From Pararhizobium sp. IMCC3301 (GTDB lineage Bacteria; Pseudomonadota; Alphaproteobacteria; Rhizobiales; GCA-2746425): DNA of 64,000 nt. Shown one piece after another: positions 19,175 to 23,692 of this stretch (positions within the stretch are counted from its first letter, which is position 1; the number at the start of each line of letters is the position of its first letter). The translations under genes were made by a program, and so were the position numbers. The stretch spans positions 3,129,001 to 3,193,000 of the forward strand of contig NZ_CP132336.1 of NCBI RefSeq assembly GCF_030758315.1, in the 5' to 3' direction. The notes below the pieces were generated by a model. The model searched no databases and was not told the origin of the DNA. It saw only the letters and a list, made by a program, of their open reading frames with translations.

Positions 19175-19477
19175 ATGAATTTAACCCCGCGTGAAAAAGA
19201 CAAGCTGCTGATTTCCATGGCCGCCGAAGTCGCCCGCAAGCGCCTCGCCCGCGGCGTCGTGCTGAACCATCCCGAGGCAATCGCCCTGATCACGGATTTC
19301 GTTGTCGAGGGCGCGCGCGATGGCAAGAGCGTTGCCGATCTGATGGAGCAGGGCGCCCACGTCCTCAGCCGTGCCCAGGTGATGGAAGGCATCCCCGAGA
19401 TGATCCACGACATCCAGGTCGAAGCCACCTTTCCCGACGGCACCAAACTGGTGACGGTGCATGAACCGATACGCTAG
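19175..19477 (+). CDS. ureA: Urease gamma subunit UreA
   Basis: Structural gamma subunit of urease, 100 residues, the standard length. It begins [20 protein letters not shown] and ends with the [11 protein letters not shown] motif, both diagnostic. The ATG at 19175 is preceded by GGAACAGGA. In typical operons ureB follows at once; here ureB starts almost 1.9 kb later because a GIY-YIG gene with flanking repeats and an IS4 element lie between them. Transcription of ureB and ureC must therefore cross these inserts or start from a new promoter. Confidence 0.97.
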
Positions 19478-19484
19478 CTGAAGA

Positions 19485-19595
19485 CTGGATCCCCGGAACA
19501 AGTCCGGGGATGACGGGAAGGAGGGAGTGCGCCCTGTTGTGACGAATGAAATACTCCCTCTCAGCGTCATCCCAGGGCTTGTCCCGGGGATCCAG
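19485..19595. repeat. Composite palindromic repeat, left copy
   Basis: Element of about 110 bases made of two inverted GGATCC-type palindromes (19485-19517 and 19564-19595), each with the pattern CTGGATCCCCGG-ACAAG-CCGGGGATGACG, around a central part containing GGGAGTGCGC and ATGAATTTC-like sequence. A second copy in the opposite orientation lies on the other side of the small GIY-YIG gene. Such repeats are dispersed in many Hyphomicrobiales genomes. Confidence 0.8.
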
Positions 19596-19622
19596 CGCAA
19601 CAAAGGAATTGCAACGGACCAC

Positions 19623-19910
19623 ATGAACCCCTGCGTCTACATGATGGCCTCAAAACGCAACGGCACGCTCTACACCGGTGTGACGTCCGATCTGCCGGGG
19701 CGTGCCTTCCAACATCGCCAAGGCCTGTCGCCGGGATTCACCAGCAGATATGGCTGCAAAACACTGGTCTGGTACGAAGCCCACGACACCATGAAGCTGG
19801 CAATCCAGTGCGAGAAAACCATCAAGCGCTATCCGCGCAGATGGAAGCTGAATCTGATTGAAGGACTGAACCCGGACTGGGACGATTTATACGAGACATT
19901 GAATGGCTAG
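19623..19910 (+). CDS. Small GIY-YIG endonuclease-domain protein
   Basis: Single-domain GIY-YIG protein of 95 residues. The two strands of the motif are CVY (residues 4-6, replacing GIY) and YTG (17-19), followed by TSDLPGRAFQHRQG with the conserved arginine and histidine; a glutamate at about residue 64 matches the metal-binding position. It belongs to the UvrC/Slx1-like small GIY-YIG family, whose members have no settled cellular role. The gene lies between ureA and ureB and is flanked on both sides by inverted copies of a composite palindromic repeat, which suggests it is cargo of, or acts on, that repeat. The ATG at 19623 was chosen because homologues start there. Confidence 0.85.
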   Translation: MNPCVYMMASKRNGTLYTGVTSDLPGRAFQHRQGLSPGFTSRYGCKTLVWYEAHDTMKLAIQCEKTIKRYPRRWKLNLIEGLNPDWDDLYETLNG

Positions 19911-19921
19911 GTGAACGAAGC

Positions 19922-19941
19922 TGGATCCCCGGGACAAGCCC
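19922..19941. repeat. Composite palindromic repeat, right copy, left fragment (includes IS4 target duplication)
   Basis: First 20 bases of the right-hand palindromic repeat, cut by insertion of the IS4 element. Bases 19931-19941 (GGGACAAGCCC) are repeated exactly at 21211-21221 and form the 11-base target-site duplication. Confidence 0.85.
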
Positions 19942-21210
19942 ACTGGTGTCCGGTTTAAAATCGGTGGACATGTTGCATGGTATTGATTCTACTTGTTTCC
20001 AACGGTTTAGCGAACGTTATGGACACGAAGTAGAGGTCAACACCATGCGGCATGAGAATAGCGTATTTCACGAGATATTGAAGCATGTTCCCTGGGGCGT
20101 GTTTAATCGGCTTGTGGACAAGCACCAATCCGATCATCGTATTCGCCGGTTGAGTACGAAAGATCAGTTTATTGCCATGCTCTACGCGCAGTTTTCAGGC
20201 GCTGTCAGTCTGCGCGAGCTTGTTGGCGGGCTGGCCAGCCACCAAAACCGTCTTTATCATCTGGGAAGCCGTCCAGTTCAGCGCTCCACATTGGCTGATG
20301 CCAATGCCACCCGGCCAAGCGAGGTTTTTACTGACCTGTTTGCCACTCTTGCAGCACGAGCAGGCCGCGGGATGCGGCGCAAGATCGCAGATGCCACCTA
20401 TCTGATTGATGCAACCGGTATAAGCTTGTCCGGCATGGGCTCGCAATGGGCCCACTTTTCCCACAAGGCTTGCGGTGCCAAAGCACATATCATCTATGAT
20501 GCCAATGCCGAGTATCCCGTCTATGCTCAGGTGAGCGCTGCCAATGTCAATGACATTACACCCGCCAAAGCCATGCCTGTTGAACCGGGTGCCACTTATG
20601 TTTTTGACTTGGGATATTATGACTTTAACTGGTGGGCCACGCTGGATCAGGCAGGGTGCCGGATTGTCACCCGGCTCAAGAAGAATACAACGCTGAAGGA
20701 AACGGTGGTTCTGGATGTGCCCGAAGGCGGCGACATCCTGTTGGACCGTATCGGCCTTCTGCCGCAAAGAACCAAAAACGGCAAGACCCGGTTCACCGAC
20801 CCGGTACGCGAGGTACAACTCAAAACCCCAACCGGCAAGGTTCTCCGCATTTTAAGCAACGACCTTGATGCCTCGGCGCAGGAAATCGCCGATCTCTACA
20901 AGCAGCGATGGGCCATTGAACTGTTCTTCAAATGGGTCAAGCAAACTCTGAAAATCCGCCATTGTGTGGGGCGCAGTGAAAACGCACTGCGCATTCAAAT
21001 CGCCGTGGCCCTCATTGCCTTCCTGCTGTTGCGGTTTGCACAGAAAACCCAGACGACCATCAAAACGCCCTTGGCTTTCGCCCGCATCATTCGAGCAAAT
21101 CTCATGCACCGAAAACAAATTGATCGCCTGCTGATGCCTGATCCAATACCCATAAAAAACAGCCACCAGATGGTGCTGTTATGATGCTGAAAGTTAAACC
21201 GGACAGTAGT
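19942..21210 (+). mobile_element. IS4-family insertion sequence, intact, 1269 bases
   Basis: Complete insertion sequence with imperfect terminal inverted repeats: the left end ACTGGTGTCCGGTTTAA and the reverse complement of the right end ACTACTGTCCGGTTTAA differ at two positions. It is flanked by an 11-base direct repeat GGGACAAGCCC (19931-19941 and 21211-21221), within the 10-13-base range known for the IS4 family. It encodes one full-length transposase in the direction of the urease genes. The target is one arm of the composite palindromic repeat between the small GIY-YIG gene and ureB. The perfect duplication suggests a fairly recent insertion. Confidence 0.92.
20045..21184 (+). CDS. IS4-family transposase
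   Basis: DDE transposase of 379 residues. The ATG at 20045 opens the region that starts MRHENSVFHEILKHVPW, a typical IS4-family N-terminus with a DUF4372-like segment. The catalytic aspartates lie in YLIDATGISL and YVFDLGYYDF, and the glutamate in the YREK signature YKQRWAIELFFKWVKQ near the C-terminus. Nothing disrupts the frame, so the element may still be active. The frame is open upstream to the left end of the IS, but that part shows no family similarity. Confidence 0.92.
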   Translation: MRHENSVFHEILKHVPWGVFNRLVDKHQSDHRIRRLSTKDQFIAMLYAQFSGAVSLRELVGGLASHQNRLYHLGSRPVQRSTLADANATRPSEVFTDLFATLAARAGRGMRRKIADATYLIDATGISLSGMGSQWAHFSHKACGAKAHIIYDANAEYPVYAQVSAANVNDITPAKAMPVEPGATYVFDLGYYDFNWWATLDQAGCRIVTRLKKNTTLKETVVLDVPEGGDILLDRIGLLPQRTKNGKTRFTDPVREVQLKTPTGKVLRILSNDLDASAQEIADLYKQRWAIELFFKWVKQTLKIRHCVGRSENALRIQIAVALIAFLLLRFAQKTQTTIKTPLAFARIIRANLMHRKQIDRLLMPDPIPIKNSHQMVLL

Positions 21211-21314
21211 GGGACAAGCCCGAGGATGACGGGCAGGGGGTGGCATTTCATTCGCTATAGCGGTGCGCACTCCCTCTAACCCGTCATCCCCGGACTTGTT
21301 CCGGGGATCCAGCG
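21211..21314. repeat. Composite palindromic repeat, right copy, right fragment
   Basis: Remainder of the right-hand repeat after the IS4 insertion. It holds the completing palindrome arm (to about 21233), a central part with TTTCATTCG and GTGCGCACTCCCTC, and the second palindrome at 21280-21314. The central part matches the reverse complement of the left copy at 19518-19563, so the two copies face each other across the GIY-YIG gene. Confidence 0.78.
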
Positions 21315-21345: not shown

Positions 21346-21651
21346 ATGATTCCCGGAGAAATCATCACACAGGCCGGCGAGATTGAGTTGAACGCCGGTC
21401 AGCCGGCGACAATACTCACCGTCTCCAACACCGGCGACCGGCCGGTGCAGGTTGGCAGCCATTATCATTTCTTTGAAAGCAACGCCAAGCTGGAATTTGA
21501 CCGCGCTGCGGCACGCGGCATGCGGCTTGATATCGCGCCGGGATCGGCAGTGCGGTTTGAACCGGGTCAGACCCGCGAAGTGACATTGGTGCCCTTCAGC
21601 GGAAACCGCAAAATCTACGGCTTCAATCAGAAAATCATGGGAGCGCTGTAA
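21346..21651 (+). CDS. ureB: Urease beta subunit UreB
   Basis: Structural beta subunit of 101 residues. The diagnostic motifs MIPGEI at the start, [14 protein letters not shown] in the centre and GFNQKIMG near the end are all present. An AAGGAAAAATC ribosome binding site precedes the ATG. The stop overlaps the start of ureC by one base. It sits just after the IS4-interrupted repeat, so it is separated from ureA although the two subunits assemble in the same alpha-beta-gamma trimer. Confidence 0.97.
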
Positions 21652-23437: not shown

Positions 23438-23692
23438 ATGGCTGTCAGTGCTGATCTTGGAAAACCGCTTGAGGCGTTTCTCGACAGACTTGTGAAGTCC
23501 GGCCGCTACCGCTCGCGCTCCGAAGTCCTGCGCGAAGGCCTGCGCCTCGTTCAGGAGCGCGAGGCGAGGCTCGCCGATCTTTACGCAAAGCTTGATGACG
23601 GGATGAAAGCCGCAGACGAAGGCCGTGTCAGGCCCGCCGCGGCTGTATTCGATGAGATGCTGGCCCGCTTGGAAGCGCTGCCGGACAAATAA
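23438..23692 (+). CDS. parD: Type II antitoxin, ParD/CopG ribbon-helix-helix family
   Basis: Antitoxin of 84 residues. The N-terminal half contains the ParD motif FLDRLVKSGRYRSRSEVLREGLRLVQERE, a ribbon-helix-helix DNA-binding domain, and the acidic C-terminal half would wrap the toxin. A TTGGAGA ribosome binding site precedes the ATG at 23438. It forms a two-gene module with the ParE gene starting four bases after its stop. The module lies inside the urease operon between ureC and the accessory genes. Confidence 0.88.
   Translation: MAVSADLGKPLEAFLDRLVKSGRYRSRSEVLREGLRLVQEREARLADLYAKLDDGMKAADEGRVRPAAAVFDEMLARLEALPDK

Follow-up and report, generated by a model that had tools for sequence, protein, structure and literature searches.

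What does a gene for a 95-residue GIY-YIG protein do between ureA and ureB, with repeats facing each other on its two sides? The locus lies in a 64,000-nt stretch of Pararhizobium sp. IMCC3301 (contig NZ_CP132336.1, positions 3,129,001 to 3,193,000), which we call the window throughout. The initial annotation compared the gene and its repeats with the repetitive extragenic palindromic (REP) sequences that are mobilized by adjacent REP-associated tyrosine transposases (RAYTs), and proposed that the nuclease plays the analogous role; we found this interpretation partly supported. From the comparisons described below, we put at about 0.6 the probability that the unit is an autonomous REP element of the CGTC superfamily, in which the GIY-YIG protein would be a dedicated nuclease nicking the hairpin of its own REPs. 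The recurrence of the gene together with a matching hairpin in many bacteria points to the enzyme as the missing partner of this long-known class of repeats, by which they would be processed or moved.

The REP-nuclease-REP unit

The gap between ureA (stop at 19477) and ureB (start at 21346) is filled, from 19485 to 21312, by a REP dimer, the gene, a second REP dimer and a later insertion sequence (IS). UreB was identified by name in a database scan, and UreA was recognised from its sequence alone. The features are as follows (G and L numbers are our labels for genomes and loci).

19485..21312, no strand: whole insertion (dimer, gene, dimer and later IS), delimited by the empty gap in G002 and G003 and by the same left junction (GAAGA) and arrangement in G001
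19485..19515, - strand: REP 1a, CGTC tag at its right-hand end; identified by consensus match, inverted repeat and folding (9-bp stem, 5-nt loop)
19565..19595, + strand: REP 1b, upstream of the gene, with its CCAG tail facing the gene and its CGTC tag on the far side; one stem mismatch
19623..19910, + strand: small GIY-YIG gene (predicted nuclease), 95 codons from ATG; PF01541, E = 7e-14
19921..19941, - strand: left half of REP 2a, nearer the gene and interrupted by the IS; the target duplication occupies its final 11 nt
19942..21210, + strand: IS4-family insertion sequence, 1,269 bp, outside the REP unit proper; transposase open reading frame (ORF) 19946-21184, start uncertain
21211..21231, - strand: the duplication again (21211-21221), followed by the right half of REP 2a with the CGTC tag (21222-21231)
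21282..21312, + strand: REP 2b, forming the second REP dimer with REP 2a; identified by consensus match, inverted repeat and folding

Each of the four palindromes is a stem-loop in which the CGTC tag is unpaired, the stem measures about 9 bp and starts with AT, the loop has 5 nt and the tail is CCAG; one of them (REP 1b) has a single mismatch in the stem. GGATCC, earlier taken as the centre of the palindromes, sits at one shoulder of each stem-loop. The '110-base element' of the initial annotation is real and is better described as an inverted pair of two 31-nt REPs: the first dimer (19485-19596) consists of REP 1a and REP 1b with 49 nt between them, and the second, of REP 2a and REP 2b, starts at 19921 and ends at 21312 with the IS inside. 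The inverted counterpart of the element at 19485-19596 ends at 21312, and the arms (68 nt) are 87% complementary. Repeats of about 110 bases around the GIY-YIG gene were correctly recognised, except that the second is split by the IS, which had been overlooked; as a result, the repeats in the window enclose a transposase gene as well as the nuclease gene. The REPs adjacent to the gene (1b and 2a) point their tags outward from it, and the outer REP of each pair is reversed.

The REP consensus matched 3 sites in the window and none in 100 shuffles, and the first element folds as single-stranded DNA with z = -8.0; a search of RNA families gave only sub-threshold matches, mostly of microRNA models to long hairpins. 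Across the window's genome, the first element has 45 whole or partial matches. A genus pattern allowing up to 3 mismatches detected 32 REPs in this genome and 20 to 95 in four congeners (20 in G002, 41 in G003 and 95 in G001). According to the available part of a 2013 survey, CGTC-tagged REPs have a CGTC tag, a stem of 8-9 bp beginning with AT, a loop of 4-5 nt and a CCA tail, are mostly paired and occur predominantly in Alphaproteobacteria (Di Nocera, De Gregorio and Rocco 2013, PMC3733652). The REPs of the window fit this superfamily in tag, stem, loop and tail, and in being dispersed, multi-copy and often paired. In the same part of the survey (PMC3733652), no transposase gene is associated with CGTC repeats, the term GIY-YIG has 0 occurrences, and what spreads these REPs is left open; in the loci analysed here, a GIY-YIG gene is their regular neighbour.

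The predicted structure of the window protein is confident (predicted local distance difference test, pLDDT, 96). Its best matches among solved structures are the UPF0213 protein 1zg2 and the branched-DNA nuclease Slx1, none with E < 0.001, and the structural match to I-TevI is weak; at the sequence level, 1zg2 matches with 6.5e-9. Residues Y5, Y16, R26, H30, E63 and N82, which we take to be the positions that are catalytic in other GIY-YIG enzymes, are invariant across a 62-row alignment. By its domain and these residues, the protein is assigned to the GIY-YIG nuclease superfamily, with a predicted nuclease activity. There is one gene of this clade in the window's genome; a second PF01541 match lies in a 651-codon open frame, which is probably UvrC. 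Between G000 and G001, nonsynonymous and synonymous divergence (dN and dS) of the nuclease gene are 0.15 and 1.55 (0.11 and 0.79 for UreB), indicating that the gene has long been under purifying selection. A phage origin was rejected, since the protein had no match among 50,697 phage records and no PHROG family.

Pairing of the nuclease gene with REPs

Among 299 genomes of the phylum, 89 had a match, and stretches of up to 20 kb around one match were taken in 75; four more genes and, as a control, one outgroup gene brought the set to 80 genes, or 79 without the control. All hairpins with a stem of at least 7 bp were listed with no motif supplied. Those lying up to 300 bp from the 80 genes most often had CGTC as their 5' tag (93 near the genes and 71 beyond 3 kb, a 27.5-fold difference by density), and their commonest tail, besides the reversed CGTC tag, was CCA (16.7-fold near the genes). 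With a strict REP finder, composed after inspection of the first 30 loci, REP density around the 79 genes was 5.56 per kb at 0-100 bp, 2.45 per kb at 100-200 bp and 0.20 to 0.22 per kb in every bin beyond 500 bp.

A strict REP lay within 400 bp of 54 of the 79 genes, on both sides in 35. Most of the remaining 25 loci show variant palindromes by eye, with long loops, mismatches or other tags; two of them (L159 and L165) show no flanking palindrome by eye, and L138 is doubtful. Within 100 bp, strict REPs were found at 51/79 GIY-YIG genes versus 70/931 of the remaining ORFs with 100 codons or more in these stretches (Fisher, 3e-32). In a set of named loci from species genomes, 64 of 80 had a REP within 400 bp, with 43 two-sided; these are the best 80 of 569 matches obtained with an alignment headed by the window protein, so the set leans towards the relatives of that protein, and a few of its genomes recur in the first set. 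The suspected association of gene and repeat is far above controls. The pairing extends beyond this lineage and is also seen in Beta- and Gammaproteobacteria.

Contigs of several draft genomes (L103, L137, L143, L093 and L153) stop no more than about 220 nt from the GIY-YIG gene, which would be expected if flanking REPs break assemblies. On a plasmid of Planktothrix agardhii (L236, 2995-3279), a homologue lies between an MmeI-type restriction gene and the DISARM gene drmA, surrounded by GTCATTCTGAG-type repeats that the strict finder leaves unscored.

When 30 loci were fetched with an outgroup GIY-YIG protein, their scores against the family profile formed two groups. At 114 bits or more (14 loci, including the window's own gene), a strict REP lay within 400 bp in eight, one of them doubtful; at 60 bits or less, this was so in 1 of 16, at 249 nt, and unconvincingly. 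By this comparison, the REP association is confined to one GIY-YIG clade. The GIY-YIG domains of UPF0213 (1zg2, 1ywl), Slx1, UvrC and I-TevI have the same fold as the window protein, whereas the low-scoring outgroup proteins differ from it in lacking flanking REPs, apart from the one unconvincing case.

Within the clade, REPs vary with the gene that they flank. The mean similarity of REP cores in 72 loci was 0.90 between left and right of the same locus and 0.53 between loci. In nine multi-gene genomes (29 loci, compared by eye), REPs are usually alike left and right of a gene, and at least five of the genomes (G299, G237, G255, G083 and G029) contain genes whose REP types clearly differ from one another; for 12 of 42 loci, the REP flanking the gene was found again at another point of its stretch, compared with 3% of other stretches (0/10000 permutations), and distances between proteins are correlated with distances between REPs (Mantel r = 0.33; 114 loci, 0/5000 permutations). 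Among 176 distinct intact proteins out of 185, 15 have AGSR or GGSR at the usual W-x-R segment, and for 14 of these a CATTGCGAG-type REP lies no more than 300 nt away, versus 6 of the other 161; two of these six exceptions have SGSR or AGPR.

At the level of whole genomes within the order, at least 5 REPs were found in 20 of 31 genomes with the gene and in 7 of 30 without it (p = 0.002, with the weak gene hits in G030 and G054 treated as absent). This co-occurrence is real but modest. The general REP pattern misses many types; in G001 it finds 1 REP, versus 95 by the genus pattern.

A gene that merely travelled along as a bystander, with REPs spread by RAYTs, ISs or recombination, would not be predicted to co-vary with them. 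Nor would such a role account for other ORFs in the same stretches lying near REPs at about one-ninth the rate, or for other GIY-YIG clades not lying near them. REPs do persist without the gene (at least 5 in 7 of the 30 gene-less genomes; 20 in G002 and 41 in G003), and an IS4-family element inserts in REPs, both of which would suit a bystander; overall, we regard this explanation as very improbable. RAYT as the mobiliser was rejected for the genus, with no match to the Y1 transposase domain (PF01797) in its five genomes G000 to G004. In G047, which has CGTC-like REPs and no match to the GIY-YIG protein (L371, G047:C1:2721500-2725500), a Y1 transposase lies near two CGTC-like REPs and, by eye, seems to bear terminal inverted repeats of its own.

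Possible unit mobility and a proposed mechanism

In the genus, the ureA-ureB gap is filled in G000 and G001, with the gene and REPs of G001 at the same point, in the same arrangement and with the same left junction (GAAGA). In G002 and G003, the gap measures about 30 nt and holds neither REP nor gene, and G004 has the gene at another location. The commonest REP type differs among G000, G001 and G004. An empty site in relatives, one of the checks proposed at the outset, is thus found in two congeners; together with the association above controls, this means that neither of the outcomes named against the initial annotation, no statistical association or the gene at this site in all relatives without repeats, occurred. 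The window unit is an old insertion, common to G001 and kept by selection, rather than a recent jump.

A domesticated site-specific single-strand nuclease (Ssn-type), cutting REPs in incoming or replicating single-stranded DNA to tune transformation or recombination with no mobilisation of gene or REP, is an alternative explanation: the gene is single-copy in the window's genome, is under purifying selection and has the same place in G001. The Neisseria gonorrhoeae homologue, 57% identical to the window protein, also has CGTC REPs on both sides, and a role in transformation has reportedly been found in Neisseria. We nevertheless consider this explanation unlikely, given that a mobile element is suggested by the several related units found at unconnected sites in G212 and G111, by the gene-less dimers in G004 that carry the inner end of the gene unit, and by several paralogues with different REPs in one genome.

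The units at unrelated places in G212 and G111 have their edges at CGTC tags. When five of these copies were aligned at the tags, agreement was 98-100% inside, 80-82% over the 10 nt adjoining the tags on the outside and 60-69% at a distance of 11-30 nt; the three letters CTT are shared at the edge. In G004, 19 gene-less dimers were picked as closely spaced pairs from the list of REPs found with the genus pattern. They consist of the gene unit's REP with outward tags and a core of 59-80 nt. The inner end of the gene unit reads TGCAAC, and 17 of the 19 dimers have this sequence, allowing at most one mismatch, at one of their own inner ends (about 1% expected per dimer). From this terminus, the dimers look like a non-autonomous form of the gene unit. 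Their flanks are merely pyrimidine-rich, and complementarity between the flanks of these 19 dimers was no better in same-site pairs than in mismatched pairs (2191/5000 permutations). Units with common edges at unrelated places and dimers with the gene-unit terminus are in favour of the mobile system that the initial annotation raised as a possibility; its Neisseria part, nuclease and repeat, is probably in print (see below).

Among 11 Sphingobium plasmids with the fnrL/response-regulator region, the unit is present in 7 (three known from 100% match rows alone, and one frameshifted) and the site is empty in 4. Two of the empty sites (L324, TomTYG64; L325, TomTYG74) have a single symmetric CGTC palindrome, which reads like a fusion of one REP's left half with the other's right half. 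The palindrome is possibly a scar of excision between the REPs; loss and the original state look alike, and filled versus empty sites do not separate gain from loss. These two sites, with one palindrome where filled sites have two REPs, would also suit a homing nuclease, a selfish gene that cuts REP-like sites and is copied in by repair, so that the REPs would be older than the gene and merely its targets. GIY-YIG domains occur in homing nucleases such as I-TevI, to which the structural match is weak. Homing appears highly unlikely, however, in view of flanking REPs that are two whole REPs and not split halves of one, of the empty ureA-ureB sites in G002 and G003 that have no REP, and of left and right REPs that change together with the protein. 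Sinorhizobium sp. M103, suspected to have an empty site from 90% coverage, was discarded because a local comparison found the gene within the matching stretch.

For an autonomous REP element, we propose the following mechanism. The GIY-YIG protein would recognise the hairpin formed by its cognate REP in single-stranded DNA and place a nick at or near the unpaired CGTC tag. Nicks at two outward-facing REPs could free or copy the REP-gene-REP unit, the ends being rejoined by host replication or repair, and an equal cut on gene-less REP pairs would move non-autonomous dimers, in the manner of REP doublets forming hairpins (REPINs).

Several points weigh against this proposal. Cleavage and movement are candidate functions of the GIY-YIG protein, proposed from sequence comparison, and REPs persist in the gene-less genomes mentioned above. 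Tag orientation is a mixture: both tags point outward in 21 of the 35 two-sided loci and inward in 7, with 7 mixed, and the corresponding numbers for the 43 named two-sided loci are 19, 10 and 14. In the window, the outermost ends of the unit are REP tails with no tags. At the edges of the G212 and G111 units, no target duplication was seen by eye; to our knowledge, IS200-type elements make none. G105 has three genes with one common REP type. The co-variation tests ignore relatedness, the GSR motif was spotted before being counted, and the same co-variation would arise if gene and REP were inherited together as a unit.

A broader proposal is that CGTC REPs constitute a second class of REP transposon, based on a GIY-YIG nuclease of fewer than 100 residues that reads its own hairpin by a code (for example, with CATTGCGAG stems specified by GSR close to the C-terminal helices) and nicks at CGTC, and involving no DDE, HUH, tyrosine or serine recombinase. 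Taken jointly, these statements are tentative, and we rate their chance somewhat below even. If they held, the enzyme reported as lacking from the CGTC superfamily would have been found. CGTC REPs mark many alphaproteobacterial genomes and those of Neisseria, and the pairing gives a candidate enzyme for many REP families and reduces the question to one small protein and one oligonucleotide. If movement is true, the result would be a transposon type with chemistry of its own; if cleavage alone is true, it would be a large set of nucleases whose targets are readable from adjacent DNA.

Known systems and minor features

The gene-REP unit works like a REP/RAYT system but is not one. As we know them, GTAG REPs with their RAYT (TnpA-REP) and REPINs likewise have an enzyme gene in single copy between inverted REPs, a non-autonomous form that consists of REP pairs with no gene, and REPs specific to the genome. 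The tag in the window is CGTC, not GTAG, and a GIY-YIG nuclease (PF01541) takes the place of the Y1 (HUH) transposase.

The N. gonorrhoeae homologue is presumably Ssn, and its repeat the Neisseria NTS. A paper of about 2025 reportedly names the Neisseria enzyme and many homologues as single-strand-specific nucleases with cognate repeats. On that definition, the window protein resembles Ssn: it is a small GIY-YIG protein, homologous to the Neisseria one, and its gene has a cognate repeat beside it. Ssn is said to be described as a nuclease acting on transformation and, unlike the present element, with no transposon-like unit. The Neisseria nuclease and its repeat are probably already in print, and the existence of the nuclease family is probably not new; the identification of the cognate repeats as CGTC REPs, the anatomy of the unit and the dimers as its derivatives may be. 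In rhizobia, RIME1 elements of about 110 nt are made of two large palindromes. The S. meliloti homologue (L233) is surrounded by such paired repeats, which we take to be RIME1; we know of no nuclease named together with RIME1. A literature search, with most subscription papers outside its reach, returned no paper with 'GIY-YIG' plus either 'extragenic palindromic' or 'dRS3', and among titles and abstract openings none joining GIY-YIG proteins to REPs.

The IS4-family element in REP 2a (19942-21210) is flanked by an 11-bp target duplication, GGGACAAGCCC, at 19931-19941 and 21211-21221. Its transposase matches PF01609, PF14294 and NF033592 (IS4 family), and the element carries DUF4372. The window's genome has three copies with identical transposase, and all three sit within the central 11 nt of a REP, each with a duplication of 11 bp. 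Further copies in REPs were found in Rhizobium sp. CIAT894 (exact duplication) and G044 (duplication 10/11); the copy in G020 is cut off and that in G049 is partial. On the loci compared (window 19931-21221, L317, L322, L318 and L234), the IS4-family element with DUF4372 targets CGTC REPs. A composite transposon built by the IS4 element was considered and rejected, because the IS has its own ends and target duplication inside one REP; the two further genomic copies with identical transposase also counter it.

Downstream of ureC, an 84-aa ORF at 23438-23692 of the window resembles, by eye, a ParD-type antitoxin.

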